Assembly (NCBI GenBank): GCA_018499905.2
Contig: JAHBAU020000037.1
Location: forward strand, 1-38,058
From: Candidatus Saccharimonadota bacterium
GTDB lineage: Bacteria > Patescibacteriota > Saccharimonadia > Saccharimonadales > AQU-01
Direction of reading: 5' to 3'
DNA: 38,058 nucleotides
Shown: in pieces, positions 1 to 38,058 of the stretch
Layout of the letters: every line of letters starts with the position of its first letter
Numbering within the stretch: the first letter of the stretch is position 1
Made by a program: the position numbers and the translations under genes
The notes under the pieces: generated by a model
What the model was told of the DNA's origin: nothing
What the model saw: the letters and a program-made list of their open reading frames with translations, nothing else
Databases searched by the model: none

Positions 1-99
1 CTTCATTTGGCTGTTGTGACTGCGCCTCGCGCTGTTGTTGCTTGGCTTCCATGTATTTAACCGACAATTCTTTAAGATGGTCGATACCACGAATGTCCA
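1..99. repeat. Direct terminal repeat, identical to 37960-38058; consistent with a circular contig overlap
   Basis: Both ends read cttcatttggctgttgtgac...gataccacgaatgtcca (99 nt identical). Confidence 0.95.
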
Positions 100-1878: not shown

Positions 1879-3414
1879 CTAATATCCCCTTGCGTTCTTA
1901 ATTGCATTTACCCGCTGATTAAAGTCTCGAGCCAGCGTACGGGTAAGCCCTTGTTGCCGATGCTTGGCATCTTGGCTGTATAAAGTTTTATCTATCAAAG
2001 CTATCTTAACCGCATCATAAAGTGAGTCTGCTATATCATCATGCCTGTGCGTATCATTGGCGGTAATCTTCATCATGTGTTCGATACAGGGGCGTATATG
2101 TTTTGCCCCATAAGTAAATGATATAAGTTTAGCCGCTATTACCGGCTGCATCTCAAGATAACGTTCGGTCTTGCTGCCAGATGCCTTGGTGCGCTTTACC
2201 TCGCGGATTTCTAGGCCGCGCATTTCGGATAAAACACTACATAGTGTAACCCCGGATGATTTCTTTTCAATGGCGGCAATTAAGGGCTTCACCTTATGTA
2301 GCATGCACTCGCCATAGAAGGACTTGAACTCGCCCTCTAAGTCCTTTGGCTCAACGCGCAATTCCCAATTATCTAGCCAGTGTAGTGCTAGCTGTCCTGT
2401 TTCTTGACCATTGGCCTCTAACTTATAGATGCCCCAGAAAGAAAAGGCACTGGCATCATTGTAAGTTTTAGAGGTCTCTGCGGTATCGGCTGTGATGAAG
2501 GTGCATAACAATTTTGGCTCTTCATCTAGGATTACAAAATCTTTTTCTTTAAATAGCGCCCCGCCCGCTGGAATTGGCTCTTGCTGATATTGTGAGGAGA
2601 ACACATAGGGGTTTTTGTCTTTTTTCTCTAGCAATTGAGAAAGCGGGTTAACCTCGGGGTAGAGCGCGTTACCGGCGATGTCTATGGCAGGTAGCACTAC
2701 AGATTTCCATGTCCGCTCATCTTTGCCGGATAGTAAAAACGCTGGCAAGTCATCTTCATGCAAACGTTGGCCGATGAAAATCATCGGAACATTTGGTGCA
2801 CGTGGTCGTTGTACAATGGTTTCTTGGTAATTTTTAATCACGCCCAAACGTGTAGTGTCTGAGTGAACCTCGTCTGGCTTATGCATATCATCCATCACCA
2901 AAGCGCCGCTAAAGTGCTGACAATTAGGCAAGCCTGCATCTTGACCGGTGATGGGGCCGGATGAGCCGAAGGCTTTAACGGAGCCGCCATGATTGTTTAC
3001 GAAGTGGTCTTTTGCTTTCATGTCGTGGCGAATGTTGACGTTAAATAAGTCTTGATAATAGGGGCATTGAATGATGCGGCGGATAAACTCGGTGTGTTTT
3101 GCGGCTAATTCGTGGCCATAAGAGATGTATAAATATTGGCTATGTGGAAACTCGGACATAGTCCAAGCTACCCATAGCGCGAGCAATGTGCTTTTGCCTG
3201 AACCAGGCGGCACATTAATTAATTCGCTGGTAGTTTGTAAGCGCTTGATTTGAGTTAATTCTTTGGCGATTGTGATGAAGTGTGATTCACGACAAGTGGG
3301 GCTACTTATTCTAAATTCACGCCCCGTAACTAGCGGAAAAAATACTTGGCAAAACAATAAAAAAGAACCCCAGAGCTGTGCTTTGATTTCGTCAACATCA
3401 ATAGTCTTTTGCAT
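1879..3414 (-). CDS. terL: Terminase large subunit
   Basis: Walker A-like NVPPGSGKST, Walker B-like ALVMDD, and position between TerS and portal. Confidence 0.93.
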   Translation of the reverse strand: MQKTIDVDEIKAQLWGSFLLFCQVFFPLVTGREFRISSPTCRESHFITIAKELTQIKRLQTTSELINVPPGSGKSTLLALWVAWTMSEFPHSQYLYISYGHELAAKHTEFIRRIIQCPYYQDLFNVNIRHDMKAKDHFVNNHGGSVKAFGSSGPITGQDAGLPNCQHFSGALVMDDMHKPDEVHSDTTRLGVIKNYQETIVQRPRAPNVPMIFIGQRLHEDDLPAFLLSGKDERTWKSVVLPAIDIAGNALYPEVNPLSQLLEKKDKNPYVFSSQYQQEPIPAGGALFKEKDFVILDEEPKLLCTFITADTAETSKTYNDASAFSFWGIYKLEANGQETGQLALHWLDNWELRVEPKDLEGEFKSFYGECMLHKVKPLIAAIEKKSSGVTLCSVLSEMRGLEIREVKRTKASGSKTERYLEMQPVIAAKLISFTYGAKHIRPCIEHMMKITANDTHRHDDIADSLYDAVKIALIDKTLYSQDAKHRQQGLTRTLARDFNQRVNAIKNARGY

Positions 3415-3916
3415 GCTTTTCTTTTAGTGCTTCCATGGCTTCGGCAATTATCTGAATGTTTTGTCCGAGGCTTGAATTACTATCTTGCGTTTTATCGCCA
3501 TAAACTTTCGGCAATAATTTACATGCTATCCATTTACGCGTATCAACGCGCAATCTGTCGCGCTGAACTTTGGCAGCATTTGCCACCCATCCCTTTTCAG
3601 TTTCGATTAAATCTCGGGTGCTATTGTCAGAGATTTCCGCGATTTCTTCGGCTAATAAATCGGCTTGGTGTCTTTTTGCTTCGGCGTACAGGGCGGCGAA
3701 CTCTGGATAATCAAGCCTCCATTCATGAATGCTACATTTATGTTTGGGAAAGAAATCGTAAGTGTCGCACATTTTTTGCAGAGGAATTGTATGAGTAGAG
3801 ATAACGCGACATATTTTAATTCCGCGCTCAAGATTATATGTGCTCGGTCTGCCGCCTGGGTGTTTTGGTTTTATGCTATCGGAATCAGCCGGTGGCTTTA
3901 CTGTCTTTTTTGGCAT
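3398..3916 (-). CDS. terS: Terminase small subunit; start trimmed to MPKKTVKPP (the ORF track begins at 3982)
   Basis: GGRPSTYNLERGIKICR...WRLDYPEFAALYAEAKRHQADLLAEEIAEI...RVDTRKWIACKLLPKVYGDK pattern typical of phage TerS; directly upstream of terL. Confidence 0.85.
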   Translation of the reverse strand: MPKKTVKPPADSDSIKPKHPGGRPSTYNLERGIKICRVISTHTIPLQKMCDTYDFFPKHKCSIHEWRLDYPEFAALYAEAKRHQADLLAEEIAEISDNSTRDLIETEKGWVANAAKVQRDRLRVDTRKWIACKLLPKVYGDKTQDSNSSLGQNIQIIAEAMEALKEKHAKDY

Positions 3917-4109
3917 TAGCTTTTCCTTTAGCTGCTCTAATTGAAGAAACTTCATCTGGCACAAGTACGACATTTTCAACAACTGCGGGCTTAACTATTT
4001 CGGTCAAAGTTAACACGCCGGTGCCTTTGCAATTCTTACAGTCAGCAATAATATTGCCTAACTGACGCGTCTTTTTTGTGCCATGACAGGCCGGACAATT
4101 GCTAATCAT
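3885..4109 (-). CDS. DnaJ-like CxxCxG zinc-ribbon protein, 74 aa
   Basis: CPACHGTKKTRQLGNIIADCKNCKGTG; RBS AAAGGAG upstream. Confidence 0.7.
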   Translation of the reverse strand: MISNCPACHGTKKTRQLGNIIADCKNCKGTGVLTLTEIVKPAVVENVVLVPDEVSSIRAAKGKANAKKDSKATG

Positions 4110-4131: not shown

Positions 4132-4160
4132 AGTGTATGCCTACTGCCTTATGATGTCAA
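4132..4160 (-). promoter_or_regulatory. Sigma70-type promoter, TTGACA-N17-TACACT, for the zinc-ribbon/terS/terL/portal genes
   Basis: Minus strand TTGACA (4160-4155), 17-nt spacer, TACACT (4137-4132); the -35 lies in the last codons of the sigma gene. Confidence 0.55.
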
Positions 4161-4655
4161 ACCAAAACGCTGCTCGAGTATTCTGCGGCCCTTATGAATC
4201 CTAGAGCGCACGGTGCCGATGGGTACATCAACCGCCATGGCTATTTGCTTGTAATCCATATTGCCAGCTAGCCATAAGAGCATAGTTTCGCGATAGGGTT
4301 TTGGTAGGCACATTAGGCATTGCTGCAGCCTATCTCGGGCCTCTTGCTCATTTAACAAGTCTTCAGGTGTTGTTTGTGTTTTGGATGCATGATAAGCGTC
4401 ATCAAACTGCACTGTTTTGGCGTTGCGCAGCTTGTGTTTGAAGGTGTTTAGTGTGTAGTTAATAGCTATGCGAGTAATCCAAGTAGTGTACTTGCTACGA
4501 CCCTTAAAACTAGCCCGGTTAGTCCAGGCGCTAATAAACACCACTGAGGCAATATCCTCAATTTGAGAGCGATTGTATACATATCTGCCTATTACACCAC
4601 AAACCTTAGAATAATTCTCTCTATACCTTTGGGTAAACAATTCTGTCTCATCCAT
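4149..4655 (-). CDS. ECF-like sigma factor (sigma70 regions 2 and 4), 168 aa
   Basis: Region 2: EDIASVVFISAWTNRASFKGRSKYTTWITRIAINYTLNTFKHKLR. Region 4: CLMCLPKPYRETMLLWLAGNMDYKQIAMAVDVPIGTVRSRIHKGRRILEQRF. Confidence 0.93.
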   Translation of the reverse strand: MDETELFTQRYRENYSKVCGVIGRYVYNRSQIEDIASVVFISAWTNRASFKGRSKYTTWITRIAINYTLNTFKHKLRNAKTVQFDDAYHASKTQTTPEDLLNEQEARDRLQQCLMCLPKPYRETMLLWLAGNMDYKQIAMAVDVPIGTVRSRIHKGRRILEQRFGLTS

Positions 4656-4682: not shown

Positions 4683-4711
4683 ATTATAGGCGATAGTAAA
4701 AATATTGTATT
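4683..4711 (-). promoter_or_regulatory. Candidate promoter for the sigma-factor gene (AATACA-N17-TATAAT)
   Basis: Consensus -10 TATAAT on the minus strand (4688-4683) about 28 nt upstream of the ATG; -35 is weak. Confidence 0.4.
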
Positions 4712-4717
4712 CATATG

Positions 4718-4746
4718 TTGACATCAGTGGGTATTAATGGGATGAT
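4718..4746 (+). promoter_or_regulatory. Early promoter TTGACA-N17-GATGAT with an 18-bp operator-like element (4722-4739) in the spacer
   Basis: TTGACATCAGTGGGTATTAATGGGATGAT; operator shared with 7584-7601 and 10137-10154. Confidence 0.55.
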
Positions 4747-4779: not shown

Positions 4780-4968
4780 ATGGGCGCATTGGCAGTTAGA
4801 AAAACAGCGGTGATGGATATAGACAACCATTCAATTTTAATTAAGAATGCCGAGGATGATATGGTTTTAATTAACATATTAGATAGCGACCCCGGGCAAA
4901 TTACGGTAATAAAAATGACTGCGAGCCAAGCGCTAGACCTAAGAATTGCCATAGGCTCTGTAAGCTAA
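4780..4968 (+). CDS. Hypothetical small early protein, 62 aa
   Basis: ORF downstream of the operator-bearing promoter. Confidence 0.65.
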   Translation: MGALAVRKTAVMDIDNHSILIKNAEDDMVLINILDSDPGQITVIKMTASQALDLRIAIGSVS

Positions 4969-4983
4969 ATATAGGGGATTAAA

Positions 4984-5172
4984 ATGCTAGAAAATCACAT
5001 GGTTATGATGGATGAAGAAGAATACAACGAGCGTTACAACTGCTATGCGGGTTTTGATAATTATGACGAGCCTAATTTAGATACCGGTCCTGAATTTGTA
5101 GCCTACCTTGCGGCTCCAGAGACTCAGGATGACGACACAGATTATGATGACGAGGACGACGAGGGGTATTAA
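4984..5172 (+). CDS. Highly acidic small protein, 62 aa
   Basis: About 22 Asp/Glu against 1 Arg; C-terminal tail DDDTDYDDEDDEGY. Confidence 0.7.
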   Translation: MLENHMVMMDEEEYNERYNCYAGFDNYDEPNLDTGPEFVAYLAAPETQDDDTDYDDEDDEGY

Positions 5173-5370
5173 TTACCACTTTTTCTTTTTGTTCCACTCT
5201 TTTACCGCATCTAACGAATATTCATACTCTTGAGTTGAGCGCCCACAATCAAAACATGTAATAACATGGGCGCTTCTCAATTCATCACTTTTAAGATTAT
5301 CGTCGAGTAAACGTATACGATTATACACACCTTTTCCCCCGCATACACTACAAACTTTAATTTGTGGCAT
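5173..5370 (-). CDS. Lar-like (restriction alleviation family-like) zinc-ribbon protein
   Basis: CSVCGGKG...VITCFDCGRSTQEYEYSLDAVKEWNKK resembles the Lar family CxxCG...CxxCG...A...WN pattern. Confidence 0.6.
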   Translation of the reverse strand: MPQIKVCSVCGGKGVYNRIRLLDDNLKSDELRSAHVITCFDCGRSTQEYEYSLDAVKEWNKKKKW

Positions 5371-5698
5371 GTATTTTTATGTGGGGGTGAGTACCACGTA
5401 ACTGTACGAGGTTATCGTACAACTCTAGCTTTAACTTAACGATAGTATTGCGGTAGAAATCCACCTCTTCTTGTAGCTGGTGTACATGCGAGGCGGCCTC
5501 ACTGCAGAACACGCAACCAGCGGCTGCACTAGCTAACAAATTAGCCTTCCACTCCTTGAGGTACTTTTGCAGAGTAGATTCGCTGCCTCTGTTCCCCAAT
5601 GCCTTGCGTACGCTTAGAATGCTAGGCATATCGCCTTGTGCGGCTAGCATATTAGCCGCAGCAAATACCTCTTGGCGTGTTATGGCGCTCATGATCAA
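5357..5698 (-). CDS. KfrA_N-like DNA-binding protein
   Basis: ITRQEVFAAANMLAAQGDMPSILSVRKALGNRGSESTLQKYLKEWKANL matches the KfrA N-terminal domain pattern; coiled-coil-like C-terminus. Confidence 0.7.
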   Translation of the reverse strand: MIMSAITRQEVFAAANMLAAQGDMPSILSVRKALGNRGSESTLQKYLKEWKANLLASAAAGCVFCSEAASHVHQLQEEVDFYRNTIVKLKLELYDNLVQLRGTHPHIKIHATN

Positions 5699-5701
5699 TC
5701 C

Positions 5702-6589
5702 TTATAAGTTTTTGGCTATCTTTTCTGCCTGGGTTAGTTCTTCTTCGTCTTCACTTTCGGCAAAAAAGTCAGCCACTACAGCGTCCTCTGCATGTCCAGC
5801 ATCTTTCATCTGTTGCTTGGCCGCTTTCTTTTCTAGCTGCAGCATAACGTCGCTAAAGCTCTCGGCGTGCATCAGCTCTAGGGCTGGGATGCGCAAATAA
5901 GCACAAATGCCCTTTTCTTCGGTTTTAGTGGCGGCTATTGCCTCGCGTAAAATCTTAATTTGCTCTTCAGTTACCAAGTCCTGGCGCACCACCTCGCCTG
6001 CGACTATGTCGCCACGCCTAGCTTTTTTAGCTGGCGCACCATCATAGTTAGCAGCCGGAATATCTTGCGCTTCCTCGGAGCTTATAATACCACGCAATAA
6101 ATCGGGAAAGGAGTCGCGCAAACAAAAACCACGCGCCCGCATCTGCAGCATTCTCTTGGGGTACTGAGTCCACGGCCCTTGCTTGCCCCAAAGACTCGCC
6201 ACCTTGGCGTCCTCTTTAGAAAATGTGCTTACAAACTCTGGCTCGTTTTTACGCTTAATTACACAAGTTGCCACCATGGTATCTTCTTTAACATTTTCAT
6301 TAATGTACTCAAACTCCGGGGATTGGCGGCAAACTGCAAGCATAGCATCGCCCCACAAGCTTGGCCGACCATTAATTACCGCTATGTTTTGTAGCGCCTG
6401 CATCGGCTTCAAGCCTAGTTCTTGGCCCATCTGTAGGCATACCAATACATCTCCAGGCTTACCCCTAAATACCTGCGGACAGAAACTAGACTGCGCTATG
6501 TATTCACTACACTTAAGGGCCTGCTCTAAAGTGGCAACCGACATGAAACCGCCGGTGCTAGCTGTAGTTGTTAATTCGTTATTACTCAT
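5702..6589 (-). CDS. recT: RecT-family single-strand annealing protein
   Basis: FRGKPGDVLVCLQMGQELGLKPMQALQNIAVINGRPSLWGDAMLA...PKRMLQMRARGFCLRDSFPDLLRGI; adjacent to an exonuclease. Confidence 0.92.
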   Translation of the reverse strand: MSNNELTTTASTGGFMSVATLEQALKCSEYIAQSSFCPQVFRGKPGDVLVCLQMGQELGLKPMQALQNIAVINGRPSLWGDAMLAVCRQSPEFEYINENVKEDTMVATCVIKRKNEPEFVSTFSKEDAKVASLWGKQGPWTQYPKRMLQMRARGFCLRDSFPDLLRGIISSEEAQDIPAANYDGAPAKKARRGDIVAGEVVRQDLVTEEQIKILREAIAATKTEEKGICAYLRIPALELMHAESFSDVMLQLEKKAAKQQMKDAGHAEDAVVADFFAESEDEEELTQAEKIAKNL

Positions 6590-7541
6590 TTTTATCTCCC
6601 GGTGTTAAAACTCTAAATGGACGGCTAGCGTTACCTGTTTTGCTGTAGTGTTTATACATCTCTGGCCGCTCTTGTTTAAATTTTGCGCTGTCAAACCTCT
6701 CAGGGGCTTTGCTAAATTTCCAGCTAATTAGCCGCTCTCCAACCTCGTTAACCATTAGCTGTTTATCGCCCATTCTAACGCACAACTTGTCGCGCAATAA
6801 CCGTAGTTGTTCTTGCTGCTCGGCAATTAAAGCATCTAAAGCCTTATATTTTATCACCAACACCTCCTCCTCTGTGCTTGCGTAATATGGATCAAAGCTA
6901 GTGGCCGCAGGATACATTAACTTAATGTCGTTTTCAGTTAACGGGGGCGGCATGATATCGGTTAACACATGGTTATGCCAGAAATCGCTCTCAGCCTTAA
7001 TTAGTTTTTCTTCTAGTTTTAAGCTTCTTTCATATTCATACCAACGCATCTCGCGGGTGGTGGTAAATACTACAGCCACATACGCCTTATCAAAATTGCC
7101 CACCGCACAATAATGCGCCACCTGTAGCAAGTAATGGGTAGGCATCTCATTAGTGTCACGCCCCCAGTCCTGGTCGTTATACGCGGTCTTGCACTCTAAA
7201 ATTGCGTTCTCATCAGCCAAGAACCTATCTACATTGCCAGCCATCCAAGGGTAATCTTTATGCACCAGCATCGGCGAGCTGGCCGAATTCGGCCCATTAA
7301 TAACCGAATTCGGTTTTAATTTTTTACCGCTCTCAGCCTCAAACCACTTAGCCACGCCATCTTCCATATAGTTTCCGAACTTTATATGGTTAAGGTTAGA
7401 TAAATCATCGGGCTCACTTTTACCGGTTTTTTCCATCCATACCGCGAAAGGAGTGCGGTGCGGGGATAAGCCGCAAATAGCTGCAGCGTCCGAGCCGGTA
7501 ACATAGCTGAGCCTCTGTTGTAACTGCTCTTGCGTTAGCAC
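6582..7541 (-). CDS. YqaJ/lambda-Exo-family recombination exonuclease
   Basis: VTGSDAAAICGLSPHRTPFAVWMEKTGK...GNYMEDGVAKWFE...NVDRFLADENAILECKTA...HYLLQVAHYCAV. Confidence 0.92.
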   Translation of the reverse strand: MLTQEQLQQRLSYVTGSDAAAICGLSPHRTPFAVWMEKTGKSEPDDLSNLNHIKFGNYMEDGVAKWFEAESGKKLKPNSVINGPNSASSPMLVHKDYPWMAGNVDRFLADENAILECKTAYNDQDWGRDTNEMPTHYLLQVAHYCAVGNFDKAYVAVVFTTTREMRWYEYERSLKLEEKLIKAESDFWHNHVLTDIMPPPLTENDIKLMYPAATSFDPYYASTEEEVLVIKYKALDALIAEQQEQLRLLRDKLCVRMGDKQLMVNEVGERLISWKFSKAPERFDSAKFKQERPEMYKHYSKTGNASRPFRVLTPGDKNE

Positions 7542-7902: not shown

Positions 7903-8217
7903 ATGAATAACACCGAAAGCACCGAAACAATAATTCTATCAGGGCGCATAGCAAATGCGCTTCAAGATACGCTCGTGAAAGAGATGCCCAGGATTGCAGG
8001 GTCAAATTTCCAAGAAGCCGCAACTCAGATGGCATTAGCCATATTTATCGGGCGGATTATGGCCTTAATTGAAATGGCCACCATCGCCAACGAAGAGGGC
8101 CGAAGCGAGCTGCGTAAAATGTTTGACCGCGCATGGCGTATAGCTGCAGATGATACCGCGCGCCAGCTTGAAGCAAGGTTTGCAGATTTTAAGAGCGGGG
8201 TTACAGAAAATGACTAA
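7903..8217 (+). CDS. Hypothetical early protein A, paralogous to the next gene
   Basis: MALAIFIGRIMALIEMATIANEEGRSELRKMFDRAWRIAADDTARQL. Confidence 0.75.
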   Translation: MNNTESTETIILSGRIANALQDTLVKEMPRIAGSNFQEAATQMALAIFIGRIMALIEMATIANEEGRSELRKMFDRAWRIAADDTARQLEARFADFKSGVTEND

Positions 8218-8503
8218 AGAAGAAAAAGAAATGCAGTTTGCCAGCGAAACGGCAGCCGCGCTTAACACTACACTTACGTCTATGCTGGCAAGCCCCGACA
8301 TCGACCCGGAGCTGCGAAGATGGTCTTTAATGAATGCCGCGCTATCGATTTTTATTGGCCATGTTTTCGCTAACCAAACACTATCATTGGGCTTGTCATC
8401 CAGTCAAAGAAAAGGCCTTTACAAACACTTTGATGATGGGTGGCGTGATGTGGCCAAGATAGCGGCAAAGGGTATTAAAGAGGGCGCAAATACTAATGAA
8501 TGA
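8210..8503 (+). CDS. Hypothetical early protein B, paralogue of the 7903 gene; start MTKEEKEMQ
   Basis: AALSIFIGHVFANQTLSLGLSSSQRKGLYKHFDDGWRDVAKIAAKGI; ATG overlaps the end of the previous ORF. Confidence 0.75.
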   Translation: MTKEEKEMQFASETAAALNTTLTSMLASPDIDPELRRWSLMNAALSIFIGHVFANQTLSLGLSSSQRKGLYKHFDDGWRDVAKIAAKGIKEGANTNE

Positions 8504-8720
8504 AAAATATTTAACCGATACAGTAAACATTTTAGGGGCAGAGTTTAAGCTCACCACTCCAGAGGTAATGAGCTACCAAGAATACCGGTTGTTTGTGCAA
8601 TGGCTTGTGCTGATAAAGGAGTTTAAAGGCGAGGCCGCAAAAGCATTCGAGGCCGCACGGGATGCCCAAAACGCCAAAGACAACCCACCAGTACGAATAA
8701 ACGTTGAAAGGGTGGACTAA
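8496..8720 (+). CDS. Hypothetical small early protein
   Basis: Tightly packed ORF overlapping the previous stop. Confidence 0.65.
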   Translation: MNEKYLTDTVNILGAEFKLTTPEVMSYQEYRLFVQWLVLIKEFKGEAAKAFEAARDAQNAKDNPPVRINVERVD

Positions 8721-8721
8721 A

Positions 8722-8925
8722 ATGACCGAACAAAATTTAATGCCGTGCCATTGGCATAAAACCCAGCCGCTCTCCGGCACACAAAGACATGGCTTGTGGG
8801 TGACGTGGTGCTCAGAGCCAAATTGCGAGTTAACTGGGGTCTATAAAACCATAGAAGAATCTGTGCAGGCATGGAACCAGATGATGGAGCGGTGCGAAGG
8901 ATTAGTCAGCCACAAGCTAAAATAA
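8722..8925 (+). CDS. Second Lar-like small Cys protein
   Basis: MPCHWHKTQPLSG...LWVTWCSEPNCELTGVYKTIEESVQAWNQM. Confidence 0.55.
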   Translation: MTEQNLMPCHWHKTQPLSGTQRHGLWVTWCSEPNCELTGVYKTIEESVQAWNQMMERCEGLVSHKLK

Positions 8926-8999
8926 TATTTTAGGTTTTAGGTCAAAAACGGTTGATCTATTTGGCTGGTGCTTGTAATTTTGTTTTAATATTTTAATTT

Positions 9000-9038
9000 T
9001 GTAGCACGCGTTGCCTTGCAGGGTCGAGGCGTGCTACA
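9000..9038 (+). promoter_or_regulatory. 10-bp perfect hairpin in the leader of the rep-like gene
   Basis: TGTAGCACGC (9000-9009) / GCGTGCTACA (9029-9038), after an AT-rich stretch and just upstream of the RBS GAAAGG. Confidence 0.6.
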
Positions 9039-9054
9039 GCACGAAAGGTCCACC

Positions 9055-10050
9055 ATGCAAATTTTAACATCTGTAGCCACCAAGTCAACCCCCCAACAAC
9101 ACTTAAATCAAGCATATAACTTAATAGAACAAGGATATTCTATGTCTAGACCACAGGCATTGGGTGCCATATTGCCTCGCACCTTAAAAACCACCGGCCA
9201 AATTTGTTACGTTCCTAGAGAACAATGGAAACAAAACAAGAAAAGAATCTACGAATGGGTAGACTCATGCGCTAAAGAAAAGCAGCTAAGCCCCACTTAT
9301 CGAACCCTACTAAAAGGGCTGGCAAACTGTTGCGACATTCATGGCGTATCCCACGTTTCCATCCCAGGAATAATAGAAGCCACCTCCAAAATTGCCCCGT
9401 ACAAAACCTTTTCAAGTGGTACAGTGAAGAGGTTTATAGCCCACTGCTTAAAGCACGGTCTTATATCGCGCACGCCTGGCACCAAATGGAAAGAGACAAG
9501 CACCACAAGGCTTCTAGCCCCGTTTTTAGTTGATCAACAAGGGATCATTTTGATCCCCGTACTACCTATAGCTACATCTCATAGTTCTAATAACAACAAT
9601 ACCAAGACTGATCTCCTCAAGGAAAAGACAGATAACAAACATTGTTCTGTTTTTTCAAAGGAGCAATTAGCAATACTAGCAACGATACTGAGCTGGAAAA
9701 CAGATAAGCCGACGGCGCTAAGGTGGCTCAAAACATATACAATCGATGAAATCCAAAAGGGGATAGCTTACATGCAGCATAAAAACATTAGTTATTCAAA
9801 ACGTGGCGGCTATATGCGCATTATTTTACAAAGCCTGGACGAACGGAAGGCGGAGGCGGCAAAGCTGCTTAAACCAGGTTACGTTTCGCCAATGGAGCAA
9901 GAAACCAAAGAGGCGCTGCGTCAGCATGAAGCAAACGCATATCGAGCCAAACGACTAAAAGAAAACCCAGAGAGAAGGGGAGCGGCTCTCTCGTTGTTAA
10001 AGCAAGCCAAGGGGGTATGCATAAGCGCTGCCAAGCAGGGAAAACCATGA
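9055..10050 (+). CDS. Replication initiation-like (winged-helix) protein
   Basis: SPTYRTLLKGLANCCDIHGVSHVSIPGIIEATSKIAPYKTFSSGTVKRFIAHCLKHGLISRTPG resembles the wHTH of O/Rep initiators; location in the early region. Confidence 0.55.
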   Translation: MQILTSVATKSTPQQHLNQAYNLIEQGYSMSRPQALGAILPRTLKTTGQICYVPREQWKQNKKRIYEWVDSCAKEKQLSPTYRTLLKGLANCCDIHGVSHVSIPGIIEATSKIAPYKTFSSGTVKRFIAHCLKHGLISRTPGTKWKETSTTRLLAPFLVDQQGIILIPVLPIATSHSSNNNNTKTDLLKEKTDNKHCSVFSKEQLAILATILSWKTDKPTALRWLKTYTIDEIQKGIAYMQHKNISYSKRGGYMRIILQSLDERKAEAAKLLKPGYVSPMEQETKEALRQHEANAYRAKRLKENPERRGAALSLLKQAKGVCISAAKQGKP

Positions 10051-10132
10051 GCTATAAACACTACATTTATGCCTCATCGACATAGTCCGCCAACTTGTCG
10101 ACGTTTCTAGCAAACGCGTACACGTTCATGTT

Positions 10133-10161
10133 TTGACATTGATGGGTAGTAATGGTATCTT
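10133..10161 (+). promoter_or_regulatory. Early promoter TTGACA-N17-TATCTT with operator-like element (10137-10154)
   Basis: TTGACATTGATGGGTAGTAATGGTATCTT. Confidence 0.55.
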
Positions 10162-10187
10162 AGGCGCAACAAGGATGATACAAGCGA

Positions 10188-10487
10188 ATGATTAACTTCA
10201 TAAAGCAGTCAAGCCCGGATGGCGGGCGCAAAAGATTTACAGTTTATCTGCCAGTGAACCTAAACCAGGGGGCGCAGGGTAATATGCGGCGGCTGATTTT
10301 GTTTTTGCAACAAGTTCACCCGTACTGGCAACATAGCAACATCTTGGTGAGAACCAAGGGGGTGGATGTGATTTGTATGGATGCCCCCTATGACTTGGGC
10401 GATGTTGATCCATGCATAACATTGGTGCGTATGTTGCAAGAAATGTACGATGGCAGCTTGAATGAATATCTAAGCTATTCTAAATGA
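10188..10487 (+). CDS. Hypothetical protein, 99 aa
   Basis: ORF downstream of the 10133 promoter. Confidence 0.65.
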   Translation: MINFIKQSSPDGGRKRFTVYLPVNLNQGAQGNMRRLILFLQQVHPYWQHSNILVRTKGVDVICMDAPYDLGDVDPCITLVRMLQEMYDGSLNEYLSYSK

Positions 10488-10502
10488 CAAAAGCGGGTAA
10501 AA

Positions 10503-10730
10503 ATGATTAGCGCTATATGGGGCTGGTTTTTGGCGCAACTCTGGCGCGCGGCGGAATTGGCAATGGCAATATTTGTGTGTAGTGTTGCTGTGACACTGCT
10601 TTTATTGGCCGTATGCGCCTTGATTGTCATTATCGGCAATCTACGGCCTGGGAATAAAAAGAAAGACGGCAACGCCGACAACATTTATGTGTTGGGTGTT
10701 ACGAGTAAGAGGAGGAAAAATGATAACTAA
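10503..10730 (+). CDS. Small membrane protein
   Basis: Hydrophobic segment LAMAIFVCSVAVTLLLLAVCALIVIIGNL with a basic tail. Confidence 0.6.
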   Translation: MISAIWGWFLAQLWRAAELAMAIFVCSVAVTLLLLAVCALIVIIGNLRPGNKKKDGNADNIYVLGVTSKRRKNDN

Positions 10731-10905
10731 AGACCAAGCCGAATACGTGATAGAAAAACTACAGCACTTTGCCAACCTTGAGGCAGGTTACCCTGAAGAG
10801 GAACCAATAATGCAAGAGGTGTTCAAGGTGATTCGCATGTGTGCTAAGGAACCACTACAAGCGTGGGATGGTGAGAAATTTATTGAGGTGGGGCGTAGCG
10901 AATAA
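10720..10905 (+). CDS. Hypothetical protein starting MITKDQAEYVIEKL
   Basis: Start placed after GGAGGAAAA; N-terminus resembles the 11338 protein (KLTKEQAEYLLS). Confidence 0.6.
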   Translation: MITKDQAEYVIEKLQHFANLEAGYPEEEPIMQEVFKVIRMCAKEPLQAWDGEKFIEVGRSE

Positions 10906-10918
10906 GCTTGCAGAGAAA

Positions 10919-11341
10919 GTGGTTCCGAAATTTAGGGCTTGGCATAGAGAATACAAAACATGGTGCGAGCCTAAAGCATTTAGCATTCAAGATTTAATGA
11001 CAATAGGTTTTTGCCTTTCGGTTCGTGATGATGATGGTGATTGCGCGTGCGCAAAGTATGAAGACATAGAGCTTATGCAGTGGACGGGATTACAAGACTC
11101 GGTGGGTAATGATATTTATGATGGTGACATTATTTCCTATCAGAACTCCACGCTAGCAGCCCTGGGTTTAGGCGCCCATGTTTTACGCCAAACATGCCGT
11201 CTTCACACAACAAGGTTTGGCGTAAAACATGGAGATTTAAAAAATATAGAGCCATTGCGCAACTGCATTAAATATGGAGAAAACTTGCGGGTAATAGGCA
11301 ACATATACTCTAATCCTGAGTTGCTTGAGGAAACAAAATGA
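10919..11341 (+). CDS. YopX-family phage protein (possible GTG start at 10919; ORF extends from 10841)
   Basis: VPKFRAWHREYKTW...LMQWTGLQDSVGNDIYDGDII...LRVIGNIYSNPELLEE. Confidence 0.8.
   Translation: MVPKFRAWHREYKTWCEPKAFSIQDLMTIGFCLSVRDDDGDCACAKYEDIELMQWTGLQDSVGNDIYDGDIISYQNSTLAALGLGAHVLRQTCRLHTTRFGVKHGDLKNIEPLRNCIKYGENLRVIGNIYSNPELLEETK
11176..11232. repeat. Perfect 18-bp inverted repeat with 21-nt loop inside the YopX-family gene
   Basis: CCATGTTTTACGCCAAAC (11176-11193) / GTTTGGCGTAAAACATGG (11215-11232). Confidence 0.95.
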
Positions 11342-11724
11342 AGAAACTTACCAAAGAACAGGCCGAATATTTATTAAGTATTTTTGGGGGTGCTGAGTTC
11401 GGATATGCACACTTTTTTGGGAGCAAAAGCGCCGAGCTTTGCTTAAACTATAAACAGGCTGTAAATCTAATACACGAAGCCACCGAACAAGAATTTCCAT
11501 CATTTAAGCTTGTTACGTCAGGCTCATCTATTAATGTCTTAAATATGTGTAGTGAAGAGGGGGAAAACCATGTGTGCAACGAGGCCATTTTTATTAAGAT
11601 CCATAATAGTACGTGGAACCAAAAGGCTTACATCATTGTTAATCCCGAAGAGTTCAAAGAATTCACCGCTAACTGCAACAAAATCGTGAAATGGCTAGAA
11701 GAACAGAGCGATAATCATGAGTGA
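11338..11724 (+). CDS. Hypothetical protein, 128 aa
   Basis: ORF overlapping its neighbours by short ATGA-type junctions. Confidence 0.7.
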   Translation: MKKLTKEQAEYLLSIFGGAEFGYAHFFGSKSAELCLNYKQAVNLIHEATEQEFPSFKLVTSGSSINVLNMCSEEGENHVCNEAIFIKIHNSTWNQKAYIIVNPEEFKEFTANCNKIVKWLEEQSDNHE

Positions 11725-12037
11725 GCGCGGCAGCTTTATTACCGAATACATGTATTGCCATGATTGCCGCAAAAAAGTAGGCGAGCTTTTAACTGATGCG
11801 CGAGAGTCAGGGTGGTTCTTGGCGCAACCGCTAGCCACGATGCAAGATGACACCTGCTCTATATGGGGGGGCATGATGTATGATACTTATTCTGGTGGAG
11901 AAATACACCACTGGGAAGCGTGGCGAAACAAAATAGAGGGCGCAATTTGTCATCCACTACATGTGGCGGTAATGAGCGAAGATGATGACGGTAAGCAGAT
12001 AATGATTTTTAAACCCCGTGAAAAAATAAATGATTAA
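11717..12037 (+). CDS. Hypothetical protein with an N-terminal CxxC (CHDC)
   Basis: Tightly packed ORF. Confidence 0.65.
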   Translation: MSERGSFITEYMYCHDCRKKVGELLTDARESGWFLAQPLATMQDDTCSIWGGMMYDTYSGGEIHHWEAWRNKIEGAICHPLHVAVMSEDDDGKQIMIFKPREKIND

Positions 12038-12233
12038 CAAAGAACAAACCGACACAATAACTATCTACGCATCACGCGAGTTAAACAATTGGTTTATAGA
12101 AACTGCCAAAGAAATGCAGTGCTCGCGCTCACAGTTGATTGCATGGGCTATGCAAGAATATAAAAACAAGATTGACGCACAGCCTGCAGAGAGGGCGCAT
12201 CGTCACAGAATAGAGGGCAAAGGATGGCTGTAA
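12030..12233 (+). CDS. Ribbon-helix-helix (CopG/Arc-like) protein
   Basis: DTITIYASRELNNWFIETAKEMQCSRSQLIAWAMQEYKNKI. Confidence 0.6.
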   Translation: MINKEQTDTITIYASRELNNWFIETAKEMQCSRSQLIAWAMQEYKNKIDAQPAERAHRHRIEGKGWL

Positions 12234-12316
12234 GAAATAAACAACAGGCTGATTTGTTAAAGCGTAAGCAGAGAGAGCAGGATAAGAAGAAGGGTAGCAG
12301 GCATGAAAATAAATAG
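12224..12316 (+). CDS. Small basic peptide, 30 aa (below the ORF-track length cutoff)
   Basis: MAVRNKQQADLLKRKQREQDKKKGSRHENK*; GGCAAAGG upstream; overlaps both flanking ORFs. Confidence 0.4.
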   Translation: MAVRNKQQADLLKRKQREQDKKKGSRHENK

Positions 12317-12566
12317 TATTGAAGATTTGCGCAACCACGCAATTAAAACTTTAGAGAAATTAGAAAGCAAGAAAATAGATATGGCCGAGGCTGGCGTTAC
12401 CGCCAAACTTTATGAGTCACTCATGAGCAGTTTAAAAACCGAAATGGAATATCATAAAATGCTTGGGCATTTACCAAGAATTAAATTTCTAGAGGGTGCA
12501 ACCTATGAGCTGAAAGAAGAGAAAAAAGAAAAACTAGAAAACCAAAAGAAAAAAATTGCAAAATGA
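12303..12566 (+). CDS. Hypothetical coiled-coil-like protein
   Basis: ORF MKINSIEDLRNHAIKTLEKLESKKID...; charged C-terminus. Confidence 0.65.
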   Translation: MKINSIEDLRNHAIKTLEKLESKKIDMAEAGVTAKLYESLMSSLKTEMEYHKMLGHLPRIKFLEGATYELKEEKKEKLENQKKKIAK

Positions 12567-13042
12567 CTGTAGTAAAAATATGTAAAAAGCATGGCGACCT
12601 AACTATAGATCAAATTATGAAAATCCCAGATAAAAATATAAAAAGGGGTTACTATTATAAATGCAATATATGTCAAAAAATATCTCAAGAAAAATATAGG
12701 GCAAAACTTTTAGAACAAAGAAAAGCTACATCTAAAACATGGGCAACCAGAAATAAAGAGTTATCTCAATTAAAATCTAAGCTGCATGGGTTAAAAGGAC
12801 GTGAGCGGCAAAAAAAAGCACAGCAAATATGGTACGAAAAAAATAAAAATGATCCAGATTATTTAGCAAACAAGCGCGAATACGATATATCCAGAAAAGA
12901 AAACCTAACAGACTCTTATATAAAAAACTTATTGGCAGCGGGCAGCAACACATTAAGATGCGCTGACTTGGATAGTCCAGCCATAATTGAGTTAAAGCGA
13001 GCCATGGTAAAAATTAAGCGTACAATTAAAAAATGCGAATAA
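12563..13042 (+). CDS. Basic zinc-ribbon protein, function unknown
   Basis: CKKHGDL...YYKCNICQK followed by a basic helix-rich region. Confidence 0.65.
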   Translation: MTVVKICKKHGDLTIDQIMKIPDKNIKRGYYYKCNICQKISQEKYRAKLLEQRKATSKTWATRNKELSQLKSKLHGLKGRERQKKAQQIWYEKNKNDPDYLANKREYDISRKENLTDSYIKNLLAAGSNTLRCADLDSPAIIELKRAMVKIKRTIKKCE

Positions 13043-13260
13043 AGTTGCTAGCAAGTGGCACATGGCACATAGGAAGCATTTCAATAGCAGCTACAACAAG
13101 AGACTTGATTGAATTATCAAATTTTGACAAACAAATTCTTTGTATATCAATATGTTATTTGTGCGAAAATTTTCCGCCCAACTTTTTAGACCTTCATATT
13201 TTTTCTAATGGTTCAAGAAAAGCCCTAACCCGTGATTATGATATTAATCACGGTTATTAG
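13033..13260 (+). CDS. Hypothetical protein, 75 aa
   Basis: ORF overlapping the end of the previous gene; its 3' end carries a hairpin. Confidence 0.5.
   Translation: MRIKLLASGTWHIGSISIAATTRDLIELSNFDKQILCISICYLCENFPPNFLDLHIFSNGSRKALTRDYDINHGY
13230..13253. terminator. Hairpin between convergent rightward early and leftward late operons; possible bidirectional terminator
   Basis: CCGTGATTA-6 nt-TAATCACGG; only a weak T tract. Confidence 0.4.
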
Positions 13261-15609: not shown

Positions 15610-15975
15610 TTAAATTAAATCAACGCTCGCATCCGCTATTGCGGATGTATCGTATTCATCCACCATAGGATATTTTTTCTTAATCACTTCACGAATCTTT
15701 TGCAAAGCTTTGGCGTCCTCTGGACGATTTTCGACCACCATTTCCCATAAGCATACAACCATTTGATTAATACTGGGATATTCAGCATTTCTTTTTTGTA
15801 TATATTTTATTTTCTCATCTTCAACTGCTAATTCTCTTAGCGCAACCTCTACTTCTTCTATAGTAGGCTTAGGTAAATCATTATGAATAATTAATGAATT
15901 ATAATCCTCGCCTGTAACGGAGAAAACCAATTCCGGAAACTTGTGACGTAATGCTCGGCATAAATTAGAACTCAA
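15610..15975 (-). CDS. XkdW-like / tail-fibre-associated protein
   Basis: KIKYIQKRNAEYPSINQMVVCLWEMVVENRPEDAKALQKIREVIKKKYP. Confidence 0.55.
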   Translation of the reverse strand: MSSNLCRALRHKFPELVFSVTGEDYNSLIIHNDLPKPTIEEVEVALRELAVEDEKIKYIQKRNAEYPSINQMVVCLWEMVVENRPEDAKALQKIREVIKKKYPMVDEYDTSAIADASVDLI

Positions 15976-16424
15976 GATGCTATCTCCATTAATACAATAT
16001 CAAAATTAGATGAGGTGATTGTAACGCGACTAAAAGCTGAATAATGCTGAAATTTATAAGCCGTAGCTGATTGCGAACCAGGGGCATCTACAAAATTATA
16101 ATTACATACAAATTGACTGCCATTACCGGCAGTGTTGTTGGCGCAAGTAATCTGCGAATATGGCGAACCACCTATTGTAGTCACCCCCCGCAAGCACTGA
16201 AAATAGCCAACGGTATTGGCCACAGCATAAGGTACGCTCATATAAAAGGTGGCCGCCACTATTATCTTGCTGCTGGTGTAATGCGGTGCAATTACAGCAA
16301 TTGCGCCGGTAATGTCTACAGCTGTAGAGCTATTAGTAGAACTGCCACCGCCGTTTACATAAACAATCTGCACTATGTTTCCTAGGGCTTTTTGACCAAC
16401 TGAACTAAATGCACTATTACTCAT
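15972..16424 (-). CDS. Fibre/adhesin-like protein, paralogue 1
   Basis: VDITGAIAVIAPHYTSSKI...VGYFQCLRG...AYKFQHYSAFSRVTITSSNFDIVLMEIAS. Confidence 0.65.
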   Translation of the reverse strand: MSNSAFSSVGQKALGNIVQIVYVNGGGSSTNSSTAVDITGAIAVIAPHYTSSKIIVAATFYMSVPYAVANTVGYFQCLRGVTTIGGSPYSQITCANNTAGNGSQFVCNYNFVDAPGSQSATAYKFQHYSAFSRVTITSSNFDIVLMEIAS

Positions 16425-16885
16425 TAGGCCACTATCTCCATTAATACAATATTCATGTTAGAGGTAGTAATGGTTGGCGCATTAGCGCTACCATAATGCT
16501 GAAATTTATACGTAGTGGCTGAAGTTGTAGCAGGATTGTCAACATAGATATATCCGGAGGCAGAATCGGTAACACAAGAACCAGAGCTTAATAACGCCCC
16601 AACTAGCGCATAAGGGGTTCCACCAATAATAGTTGAAGTCCTTACGCATTGAAAATAACCGCTAGTTGCTTGCGCAACAATTGCTCCGACATCATTATAC
16701 CAAGTTGCCCAAACTAGAATCTTATTCGAAGCCGAAGTTGGCGTAATAGTAGTTGAGCTACCGGTGATATCCACCGCAGTGGTACTAGAGGTAGCACTTC
16801 CGGCGCCATTATTGTAAATCACCTGCACGACGCTACCAGTTAATGATGCTGTGCCTGAAACCGTGAATGCACTATTGGACATCAT
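16424..16885 (-). CDS. Fibre/adhesin-like protein, paralogue 2
   Basis: VDITGSSTTITPTSASNKI...SGYFQCVRT...TYKFQHYGSANAPTITTSNMNIVLMEIVA. Confidence 0.65.
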   Translation of the reverse strand: MMSNSAFTVSGTASLTGSVVQVIYNNGAGSATSSTTAVDITGSSTTITPTSASNKILVWATWYNDVGAIVAQATSGYFQCVRTSTIIGGTPYALVGALLSSGSCVTDSASGYIYVDNPATTSATTYKFQHYGSANAPTITTSNMNIVLMEIVA

Positions 16886-17066: not shown

Positions 17067-18392
17067 TTAAACTAAACCACGCTCTAAAATGTATTGATAA
17101 GCCATGCTATCACCAATTGCAGCCCCCGCCACCCCTGAACCGCCTAAACGTACCGAGTTATTAGTTAACAACGTAGTTGGAGCGCCACCGGCTTGTGCAG
17201 AGCGCGTCACATTATATGCGCGCCCCGCGGTGGCCCCTGCTGGGTTGTAAGTGGTTAGGCCGGTGGTTGATGGCACCATCATTCGTTGTAATTGATAAAC
17301 AATACCATTGCTAGCGGTTGCCCCTGCCACCGTTGCTGGGGTGTATAGCTCGCCATTACCAAGGCCCGGATTATCTACCGGAGCCACGCTGTACAAGAAA
17401 GTCTTTTGATAATAGAACTGGCAAGACTTTAGCTGCTGGGCAAAACTTTTGCGCTGGAACGATGTTGCCTGTGGGGCAATCTCTAGCTGCACGTCAGTGA
17501 TAAAGAAACTATCATCAGCCCCAGCCGTTCCTGTTGGTGCCATAGTAAACTGTATAGCTAACTGGGTAACTGTGGAGCCTAAGGTTGAACTGCTGGCTGT
17601 GAAACTGGTCAAGGTAGTGCTCAATGTTACCGAGGTTGATATAGGGCTCGCACTTCCTGTGTATGCCCCGTTTATACCGCTAGTAAAGCCTGTTCCGGTA
17701 CCAGAATAAACCGTAACGCTCAATAACGAACTAGTTGGCGAGTAGTTGGCACCACACTTGGCTTTAAAAGATAGCGTTACCACGTTCCCTGCCGCCCCAG
17801 TGCAAGCATCAAACACAATAGATTGACAGAAAGCTACGTTACCTGTTCCGGTTTGGCCGTTATTGCGCTGCACCTTGGCTAACCAAGAACCAGAGGTGGC
17901 CCCAGCCGTTTGGGTGACGGTAAATGCCTGATTAGTGCCAGTTGCTAGCTGCCACATATCAGCGGTATAAGCAGTGGTTGATGCTGCAACTGCAATGGCT
18001 GCAGCCCCGCCAGCGCCTCTCTGCCACACCTGCATGTCACCATTTATTGCTAAATTATTGCCAGTAATACTAGCTGGTAAATCCACGGCTATAGTGCCGC
18101 TACTGGTAACGGCAGAACCGGTTACCGTTAACGTGGAGCTGGAGACTGCAACGCTAGTAACCAAACTGTTGGTAGCCCATTTTACCCCAGCGCTTTGCGC
18201 AGAGTCGGCGGTTAATGACTGACCATTGGTGCCAACTGCCAGGCGAATATTATTAGTGCCATCTCGCACAACAATATCGCCCTTAGTGGTTAGGGGCGAT
18301 AAATTATTAAACGCGGCAGCTGCGGTCGTAGCATTCGTGCCGCCTTGCGCGATAGTTAGTGTAGTGCTGGTATTGGCTATATTAATTGTCAT
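17067..18392 (-). CDS. Tail fibre/receptor-binding protein, tandem copy 3
   Basis: [23 protein letters not shown]...ITGNNLAINGDMQVWQRGA...CQFYYQKTF. Confidence 0.75.
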   Translation of the reverse strand: MTINIANTSTTLTIAQGGTNATTAAAAFNNLSPLTTKGDIVVRDGTNNIRLAVGTNGQSLTADSAQSAGVKWATNSLVTSVAVSSSTLTVTGSAVTSSGTIAVDLPASITGNNLAINGDMQVWQRGAGGAAAIAVAASTTAYTADMWQLATGTNQAFTVTQTAGATSGSWLAKVQRNNGQTGTGNVAFCQSIVFDACTGAAGNVVTLSFKAKCGANYSPTSSLLSVTVYSGTGTGFTSGINGAYTGSASPISTSVTLSTTLTSFTASSSTLGSTVTQLAIQFTMAPTGTAGADDSFFITDVQLEIAPQATSFQRKSFAQQLKSCQFYYQKTFLYSVAPVDNPGLGNGELYTPATVAGATASNGIVYQLQRMMVPSTTGLTTYNPAGATAGRAYNVTRSAQAGGAPTTLLTNNSVRLGGSGVAGAAIGDSMAYQYILERGLV

Positions 18393-34746: not shown

Positions 34747-35997
34747 CTAAACTGGGAAGGCAAGCATCATCGAATCCTCCGGCACCAGTGTAGAGCCCCA
34801 TATAGCATCGTGAACCATCCCGCGAACATTTTGCCCGAACTGAGAACCGTAGTACTGACGAATGCTCATGCCAGTTAATGGATCAACCGCGTTACCTGTT
34901 GGGTAAGGAGTTTCATTTGGTAACTGTGGCATTGCTAGGAACAATGGATCGCCTGAAGTAATCAAACCTGCACGATGGCTTGGAAGCACAGATACTTGCA
35001 TGCCAACTTGGATTGCTTGGTTTAAGTTTTGCTCAGCAGTTGGCAGTGATTGCAAGTATGGGTAACAGCTCACTGTAACCTGTGAACCGGCAGTTGATGC
35101 CGCATCCGCTGTTGCTTGGAATTGCACAGGGTTGCTAGAGTTTTGATGCCCAACGAAGGTTAGGTAACGCATGTTGTTAAAACCGGCAACACCGTCATTA
35201 AACTGTAACTTATCGTATTGTTTGATTGAACTAGCATCCGATGCGCCATGACAACCACTAAAAGTAATTGTGTCGATTGAAGAGCCAGGACCATTAGTTG
35301 TAAAGCTTACAACTGTCAATGTAGATGCGTAAGTTCCTTCAGAGCCAGACACATGCACTGGTAACAAGTTAGATTTGTACCATTTGCAATCAGCAAATGG
35401 AGATAATTCCCAACTGTTAGCCATCTTGTTGTTTCTATCTGGGGCAAACTGTGCCAAACCGCCGGCAACAATTGGAGGAATTGCTACATCAGATAAATAA
35501 CCTTTAGCCTCACCTGCGATAGCGCCGTAGTTTCTAAAAAACGCCATGGCTTCAGCTAATTGAGTTGGGCTGTTAATTGGAGTTGTGCCGTTACCATAGA
35601 AACGATAAGTATTAGTTACCGCATTTAACGCAACGTTAGCTTCAATCTTAGAGCCTATTTCGCGCACAGCTGACATGCCAAAACGGGACATGTAGTCTTT
35701 AACGTTTAATATAAATTGTTGGTCTGTAAAAGCATATGATGCTGAGATTTCGTTGTTAATTACCAATGGTTGCACACGTTGATTAGCTGGTTGGAATTGG
35801 GCTACCAAGCTGTCAACTGTTGTCATACGTGGTGGTAAATCGAATGTAACAGTAGAGCCTAAGTTTGCAGTTCTGTCTTGGAAATTCTTGAACTTTTTGT
35901 TACTAGTTGAGATAAACGGGCCGAAGTTTTGCATTGCTGCAAGTCCTGACAATTGATATGTCTGGACGGTCTGTAGAATTTGATTTGGCACTGCCAT
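34747..35997 (-). CDS. Major capsid protein, P22 coat-like (start MAVPNQ)
   Basis: TYQLSGLAAMQNFGPFISTSNKKFKNFQDRTANLGSTVTFDLPPRMTTVDSLVAQFQ...; follows scaffold. Confidence 0.88.
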   Translation of the reverse strand: MAVPNQILQTVQTYQLSGLAAMQNFGPFISTSNKKFKNFQDRTANLGSTVTFDLPPRMTTVDSLVAQFQPANQRVQPLVINNEISASYAFTDQQFILNVKDYMSRFGMSAVREIGSKIEANVALNAVTNTYRFYGNGTTPINSPTQLAEAMAFFRNYGAIAGEAKGYLSDVAIPPIVAGGLAQFAPDRNNKMANSWELSPFADCKWYKSNLLPVHVSGSEGTYASTLTVVSFTTNGPGSSIDTITFSGCHGASDASSIKQYDKLQFNDGVAGFNNMRYLTFVGHQNSSNPVQFQATADAASTAGSQVTVSCYPYLQSLPTAEQNLNQAIQVGMQVSVLPSHRAGLITSGDPLFLAMPQLPNETPYPTGNAVDPLTGMSIRQYYGSQFGQNVRGMVHDAIWGSTLVPEDSMMLAFPV

Positions 35998-36062
35998 GTG
36001 AATCACCTATATTTATCATAAAAAAATAATAAATAGATGTGTTTAGAGGGGCAGTAACTAGA

Positions 36063-36782
36063 TTAGAACTTCAACCAATCTGCTTGCTTTAAATCCTCAA
36101 GCGTCATATTCCCCCTATCCGCACCTACGTTAGATGGTCTAGTTTCAGATAATGGAGGGTTGGTTGGTTCATACTCTGCGGCAGCGGCACGATTCTGACT
36201 GATAGAATCAGCTAGTTTCTGTAACTCCACCATACCTCTATTGGGCATTTTGTTTAGCCAATAGTCGATTTGCTGTAGTTTTAATGGGTTTTTGCTCAGC
36301 TCATACATAATGTCGCCAGCATTTTCCATTCCGCTCACGGCATGTACGATTTGTGGGAAAGCTTCGTGCTCAAAGTCGCCCATTATTTCGTCAAAATCAT
36401 TGTAGCGCTCTTTGGCTGCTTTGAGTTTCGAGAAATAAGTATCTGCTACTCTGCGCATTTCAGCCTCGCGAGCTTCAGCGGCGATAGCGTCTTGCTGGGC
36501 ACGCAAGTCACGCTGGAATTTAGTCGAGAAGTCTTGGTAGAGCTTTTCAGTATCTACCGAGCCTGTCATGCCACCTAATGCGGCGGTTTGACCGGTCTTT
36601 AACTTGTCTAATTCTGCGGCGTGTGCGGCTTGCAACTCTTGGCGTATCTTAGCTTCTCTAGCTGCGAGTTCTGCTTTCTCTCTCTTGACGACCCTATCTA
36701 CTTCCTCTTGCGTGAGTGTTTTAGGCTCGGCAACAGGTGCAACAGTTTCGCTTTGAGATCCATCCAAATCAACATTTTCCAT
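36063..36782 (-). CDS. Scaffolding protein
   Basis: Acidic/helical: KTLTQEEVDRVVKREKAELAAREAKIRQELQ...; directly upstream of coat. Confidence 0.82.
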   Translation of the reverse strand: MENVDLDGSQSETVAPVAEPKTLTQEEVDRVVKREKAELAAREAKIRQELQAAHAAELDKLKTGQTAALGGMTGSVDTEKLYQDFSTKFQRDLRAQQDAIAAEAREAEMRRVADTYFSKLKAAKERYNDFDEIMGDFEHEAFPQIVHAVSGMENAGDIMYELSKNPLKLQQIDYWLNKMPNRGMVELQKLADSISQNRAAAAEYEPTNPPLSETRPSNVGADRGNMTLEDLKQADWLKF

Positions 36783-36892
36783 AACTTAAACCCACTATTT
36801 CCCCGTGACGGTGATGCCTGCTGACGATGCAGTACGCTCATTTTGCCCGATGAGTCGGTGTAACCCAGGTTAATGCCTGGTCATATGCACTA
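36783..36892 (-). promoter_or_regulatory. Structured 5' leader of the scaffold mRNA
   Basis: Minus-strand hairpins CCAGG-cattaa-CCTGG, CCGA-ctca-TCGG and CTGC-atcgtca-GCAG between the promoter and the ATG at 36782. Confidence 0.45.
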
Positions 36893-37695: not shown

Positions 37696-38058
37696 TGCCC
37701 CCTTGTAGTGTTTTAACAGTTTTAACTGCTAGCTCAACTGCCGTTCTTGCTTGTTCTGCGGCCAGCTTTTCTTTCTCGATGGCATCTTTTTTATCGCCCT
37801 GCTCAATCTTGGCTAACATTTCAATAAATTTAATTTGCGTTTCTTGCTCTTTAATGGCAAGTTCAGCCGCCTTGTTGGCTTGCACACCTTGCGCCGCCTC
37901 TCGACGTTGCTCGGTCTCCATTTGAGTTTTTTGTAGCTCAGTTTGCGCTAGAATCTCCACTTCATTTGGCTGTTGTGACTGCGCCTCGCGCTGTTGTTGC
38001 TTGGCTTCCATGTATTTAACCGACAATTCTTTAAGATGGTCGATACCACGAATGTCCA
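37685..38058 (-). CDS. Portal protein, C-terminal part, continuing from 1-1876 across the junction
   Basis: Same frame after circularisation (39835-38026 is a multiple of 3); ...ELSVKYMEAKQQQREAQSQQPNEVEILAQTELQ... Confidence 0.88.
   Translation of the reverse strand, partial: DIRGIDHLKELSVKYMEAKQQQREAQSQQPNEVEILAQTELQKTQMETEQRREAAQGVQANKAAELAIKEQETQIKFIEMLAKIEQGDKKDAIEKEKLAAEQARTAVELAVKTVKTLQGGNDD

Follow-up and report, generated by a model that had tools for sequence, protein, structure and literature searches.

ECF-type sigma factors that drive the middle or late genes of phages are established, and both gp36 of phage phiEco32 and gp47 of Salmonella phage 7-11 (SaPh711_gp47) are proven late sigma factors (PMC8948821). 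Annotated ECF sigma factors also occur in Salinivibrio phage CW02, Citrobacter phage CVT22, Agrobacterium phage Atu_ph04, and the crAss-like phages. The stretch of DNA analysed herein (the window, 38,058 nucleotides) adds a P22-like phage to these known carriers. Like phiEco32, in which gp36 serves as the late/middle sigma factor of a Kuravirus, the phage in the window is a podophage using the host RNA polymerase and encodes an ECF-type sigma factor (PMC8948821, PMC7881722); however, the two proteins gave a marginal blastp match (38 aa, 20.8 bits, E=0.01), and gp36 has no recognisable region 4, whereas that of the window protein is intact. The gene for the phiEco32 factor, moreover, lies in a middle-gene block opposite in direction to the late genes, whereas the window gene heads the late strand, where the late promoters are host-type in look. 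Phage 7-11 gp47, which directs transcription from late promoters of the form GTAAtg-16-aCTA (PMC8948821), shares with the window protein the ECF type with regions 2 and 4, but the blastp score between them was 15.8 bits and the gp47 promoter pattern was not enriched in the window. The ECF sigma factors of CW02, Atu_ph04, CVT22, and Cronobacter phage GAP52 were among the top structural matches in the viral library, yet they belong to other phages and show 15-20% identity. A crAss-like phage factor (e.g. NC_055889 gp33) has the S-V pair of region 2.2 in common with the window protein, but its identity was 27.5%, it comes from a different phage order, and the two group by long branch only. The nearest proteins by sequence (approximately 30-39% identity, up to 95.6 bits), and among the nearest by fold, were the bacterial RpoE/AlgU-type ECF sigma factors, from which the window protein differs in the Q-E to S-V replacement, in a score below the NCBIfam RpoE cut-off, and in having no recognised anti-sigma gene adjacent to it.

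The sigma ORF, which starts with ATG, is predicted to encode an ECF sigma factor that is complete with both domains and akin to the bacterial RpoE/AlgU-type sigma factors. The first-pass annotation had described a 168-aa ECF-type sigma factor with region 2 and region 4 motifs; both motifs were found in the ORF, and the Pfam, NCBIfam, PHROG, and PDB searches agreed with this assignment. The HMM search proposed there placed both domains above their curated Pfam cut-offs (Sigma70_r2, E=5.5e-11; Sigma70_r4_2, E=1e-10), and the protein also passed the NCBIfam model of the sigma70-ECF superfamily (TIGR02937, 78.5 bits vs a cut-off of 42.9). The top single NCBIfam model was RpoE (TIGR02939), for which the score of 94.6 bits was below the equivalog cut-off of 236.15. 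PHROG 1740 'RNA polymerase sigma factor' matched at 1.3e-18, and a PDB sequence search returned AlgU, SigW, and sigma-E at 1e-16 to 1e-18. The protein consists of regions 2 and 4 only, without regions 1.1 and 3, which is the layout of ECF (group 4) sigma factors. The structure prediction proposed in the same annotation was likewise in good agreement: the AlphaFold2 model (pLDDT 85.2) comprised two helical domains separated by a disordered linker (residues 79-92, pLDDT <50), its best fold matches were sigma-E, sigma-H, AlgU, and SigW, and the separate domains matched solved ECF sigma domains (region 2 vs 4lup, TMt 0.77, rmsd 1.3 A; region 4 vs 5fgm, TMt 0.84, rmsd 1.0 A). The low whole-chain TM-scores (pTM 0.46) were expected, since the two domains are placed on a flexible hinge. 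The ECF identity of the ORF together with its late-strand position is far beyond chance.

An alignment and a tree of the window protein with 42 other sigma factors were used to examine individual residues. W59 and N66, which we take to be the equivalents of the -10-reading residues W73 and N80 of E. coli sigma-E, are kept in the window protein, and its -35-reading recognition helix, PIGTVRSRIHKGR, is shared without any change with L146, a cellular RpoE whose own gene is preceded by TGAACTT-15-TCAAA. The core-binding motif of region 2.2, DxxQExF, which is a typical feature of ECF factors and no strict criterion, reads DIASVVF in the window protein, with the Q-E pair replaced by S-V. The Q of this motif was found in every aligned row except the window protein and the crAss-like phage sigma factor L054 (8001-8480), and the S-V pair in place of Q-E was shared by these two and differed in all other aligned sigma factors. 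In sigma70, the Q-E pair of region 2.2 contacts the beta-prime clamp; the altered motif suggests that core binding may be changed in the window protein. The tree placed the latter on a long branch beside L054, a position that calls for caution about long-branch grouping, outside the RpoE clade and far from the factors of phiEco32 and 7-11. No anti-sigma (rseA-like) gene was matched beside the sigma gene, which is flanked by the zinc-finger gene and by small plus-strand ORFs.

The ends of the window (1-99 and 37960-38058) are identical over 99 bases, indicating a complete circular P22-like genome of approximately 37,959 bp. Given this circular permutation, the minus-strand late block continues from the portal gene through to the lysozyme gene, in the order sigma, zinc-finger gene, terS (Sf6 type), terL, portal, scaffold, coat, tail genes, and lysozyme (Table 1). 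The statement in the first-pass annotation that the sigma gene precedes the zinc-finger, terS, terL, and portal genes on the same strand was corroborated by the ORF order and the Pfam matches. On the other side, small plus-strand ORFs at 4780-5172 diverge from the sigma gene, and a further plus-strand block, presumably early, occupies 7903-13260. The minus-strand block at 5173-7541 encodes a YqaJ exonuclease, a RecT annealing protein, a KfrA-like DNA-binding protein, and a Lar-like restriction-alleviation protein, the last of which scored slightly under its Pfam cut-off.

Table 1. Coordinates of genes and candidate promoters around the sigma gene and in the late block of the window
Feature	Position	Strand	Remarks
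Terminase large subunit	1879..3414	(-)	
Terminase small subunit, Sf6 type	3398..3916	(-)	PF20901, 3.7e-23; start codon uncertain
DnaJ-like zinc-finger protein (CxxCxG...CxxCxGxG)	3885..4109	(-)	Opens the late operon in close relatives; zinc finger possibly Q-like
sigma70-type promoter, TTGACA-17-TACACT	4132..4160	(-)	Before zinc-finger/terS/terL; over 3' end of sigma gene; p=0.010 vs shuffles
ECF-type RNA polymerase sigma factor (predicted)	4149..4655	(-)	168 aa; region 2, residues 11-74; region 4, residues 108-158
Possible sigma-gene promoter, AATACA-17-TATAAT	4683..4711	(-)	-10 perfect, -35 weak; p=0.41, not significant
Divergent early promoter, TTGACA-17-GATGAT	4718..4746	(+)	Before ORFs 4780-5172; counterpart in L001, TTGACA-17-GATTAT
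Major coat protein gene	34747..36006	(-)	From position and P22-like gene order; relatives at 75-86% identity
Scaffold-like protein gene	36063..36782	(-)	Upstream of coat; relatives
sigma70-type promoter, TTGACA-17-TATAAA	36893..36921	(-)	Before scaffold/coat; conserved in sigma-less relatives; p=0.01-0.02

Comparison with related phages shows the sigma gene to be a single-gene insertion of approximately 510 bp, with the divergent early control region on one side and, on the other, the zinc-finger gene with its sigma70-type late promoter. In close relatives, the zinc-finger gene opens the terminase operon, and 204-272 nt separate it from a divergent gene (four relatives; the figure for L058 is unreliable owing to an alternative start). 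The corresponding gap in the window is 670 nt, and becomes 163 nt once the sigma ORF is removed. On the early side, the flank GTCAACATAT..AATACA is common to the window and L001, and on the late side the promoter, for which the window sequence is given in Table 1, reads TTGACA-17-TACAGT in L003 and L056, TTGACA-16-TACAGT in L057 and L058, and TTGATA-17-TACACT in L072. The P22-like phage family otherwise appears to be without an ECF sigma factor in the DNA searched. TerL searches led to 43 and then 80 viral loci (partly overlapping) at 47-76% identity, and neither the window protein nor an ECF profile matched any of 14,723 ORFs of 117 TerL-related loci. PF04542 (region 2) gave no match, and PF08281 (region 4) none above cut-off, in 34 whole relatives' records of 34-43 kb; the sigma gene was also absent from the ORFs of 28 coat-related loci (coat identity up to 86%). 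As the family searches scored in control genomes, the empty result in the relatives, some of whose records may be fragments, is informative. The clearest sigma-less relative, G075, is syntenic with the window (coat 75%, portal 63%, TerL 76%) and carries no sigma gene in its 40 kb.

Searched as a single query against viral contigs, the window protein found no relative, and an RpoE-like alignment used as the query retrieved only 16 distant phage ECF factors at 32% identity or less. In the 43-kb viral contig L200, an ECF sigma factor of 32% identity (5884-6483) is encoded on one strand and endolysin-like and probable structural genes on the other, an arrangement resembling that of phiEco32. The best 'phage' DNA matches, L052 and L053, have bacterial genes aboard and were set aside as looking like bacterial contamination.

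The promoters are candidates, called as consensus matches and scored against shuffles. For the regions upstream of the zinc-finger gene in 39 relatives the combined p-value was 5e-4 (six individually p<0.05), and for the scaffold promoter in 20 relatives it was 7e-4 (five individually <0.05), both combined values being optimistic because the relatives are incompletely independent. The scaffold promoter recurs as TTGACA-17-TATAAA in L172 and L191 and in near-identical form in L174 and L176, and lies 115-122 nt from the start codon in the relatives and 110 nt in the window. No sigma gene was found in the available DNA of the relatives sharing these promoters, several of which are fragments. The promoter patterns of sigma-E, phage 7-11, and phiEco32 occurred in the window at approximately background counts, without enrichment; a de novo two-block motif search of the late upstream regions returned nothing exceeding shuffles; and no target promoter for the sigma factor was identified in host or phage. 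The missing ECF promoter motif constitutes weak negative evidence, because a motif search also failed to find the 7-11 promoters prior to their mapping (PMC8948821, PMC4331800).

From the scaffold promoter to the start codon runs a leader of approximately 110 nt (36783-36892, minus strand), which resembles a series of consecutive small hairpins (CCAGG..CCTGG, CCGA..TCGG, CTGC..GCAG), ending in CACCGTCACGGGGAAATAGTG. It recurs in relatives with apparently compensatory changes, the whole-leader RNAalifold consensus being weak (-3.4 kcal/mol), and had no match in Rfam. The leader may serve scaffold or coat as a translational operator.

Ahead of terL, many relatives (38 of 88 by pattern) encode a small DnaJ-like zinc-finger protein with an invariant CxxCxG...CxxC and a charged tail. 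In the window, this protein gave a single weak PHROG match, and against lambda Q it showed a local resemblance to the zinc finger of Q only (hhalign probability 27). No Q-type antiterminator had been recognised in the first-pass annotation; the zinc-finger protein, weak as the resemblance is, could possibly act as a Q-like factor.

All these features are best explained, at roughly an even chance in our judgement, by an accessory RpoE-like sigma factor that was gained as an insertion and redirects the host RNA polymerase while the late genes stay on the host housekeeping sigma factor. An ECF sigma gene entered a P22-like lineage as a single-gene insertion; its product would bind the host core RNA polymerase and divert some of it to promoters of the ECF type. 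Given that the recognition helix is the same as in a cellular RpoE, sigma-E-type promoters of the host would be the likeliest targets. The phage late genes would remain on the host housekeeping sigma factor, such that the phage sigma factor would be accessory and dispensable for them. That an acquired RpoE-like factor with a modified core-binding surface takes over the host envelope-stress regulon, with the late genes on host sigma70 promoters, is a tentative proposal that we regard as unlikely. The first-pass annotation had instead proposed that the phage replaces the host sigma factor with its own for late transcription, and this was not borne out: sigma70-type promoters precede both zinc-finger/terS/terL and scaffold/coat, similar promoters occur in sigma-less relatives, and no known ECF-type promoter was enriched. 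In its fuller form, modelled on phiEco32 and 7-11, the sigma factor would be made early from a host-type promoter, displace sigma70, and fire late promoters that are unrecognisable by sequence. The place of its gene as the first on the late strand, the proven precedents in other podophages, of which the 7-11 promoters escaped motif search before mapping (PMC8948821, PMC4331800), and a long branch that could possess its own specificity give this late switch some weight, although it is unlikely. Against it stand the host-type promoters of the terminase and scaffold/coat operons, as in close relatives without a detected sigma gene, the late upstream regions without a shared motif, the unenriched sigma-E-, 7-11-, and phiEco32-type promoters, and the middle-block position of the phiEco32 sigma gene, opposite to the late genes.

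The sigma factor could also work as a feed-forward booster: an additional start, ahead of the sigma gene or inside the late block, would increase late expression, for which the factor would not be essential. The sigma gene is co-directional with zinc-finger/terS, and no terminator was predicted in the 39 nt separating it from the zinc-finger gene; however, the region ahead of the sigma gene yielded no ECF-type promoter, and we consider this decidedly unlikely. A competitor or decoy that chiefly sequesters core RNA polymerase or an anti-sigma factor, and so lowers host transcription instead of directing new transcription, would fit the Q-E to S-V change, which hints at an unusual core interaction, and the lack of target promoters found; yet a pure decoy would have no need of the DNA-reading residues that are conserved (W59, N66, GTVRSRI), which makes this reading very improbable. 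Least probable of all, the gene may be a neutral passenger, acquired without a role. Its occurrence in a single genome among those searched would suit a passenger, but its reading frame is intact, with a plausible ribosome-binding site (AAGGTG) and a GC and GC3 content like that of the rest of the phage, and the conservation of functional residues on a long branch suggests selection.

With one genome carrying the sigma gene, many relatives without it (some of them syntenic), and both insertion flanks recognisable, the locus would be a clean comparative case of the gain of a regulator by a phage. If the sigma factor acts on host promoters, as in the preferred accessory role, it would represent phage control over a host stress regulon through an acquired sigma factor; if it acts on late promoters, a late switch would be in the course of replacement in a P22-like background. 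A sigma gene placed first in a late operon need not encode a late sigma factor.

Binning had assigned the phage contig to a 1.09-Mb MAG from an order of mostly small genomes. The best ECF match among the relatives of this MAG scored 48.9 bits. In the class of a Legionella bin, 209 of the 274 genomes sampled matched the sigma factor at E<=1e-14 (best 95.6 bits), and the top matches examined in this class were rpoE loci with an rseA-like gene downstream. Related TerL genes were found in a Legionella bin, in a Gammaproteobacteria bin, and also in unrelated bins. The organism of the MAG is doubted as the host, since the Legionella-bin class has ECF factors much closer to the window protein than do the relatives of the MAG, and TerL kin occur in the Legionella and Gammaproteobacteria bins. 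The contig is probably mis-binned, and a gammaproteobacterial host appears likelier than the organism of the MAG.

Elsewhere in the window, three consecutive paralogues of approximately 440 aa with a common N-terminal stretch are encoded at 17067-21024, and two paralogous proteins of 150 aa at 15972-16885; both sets are apparently duplicated tail-associated proteins.
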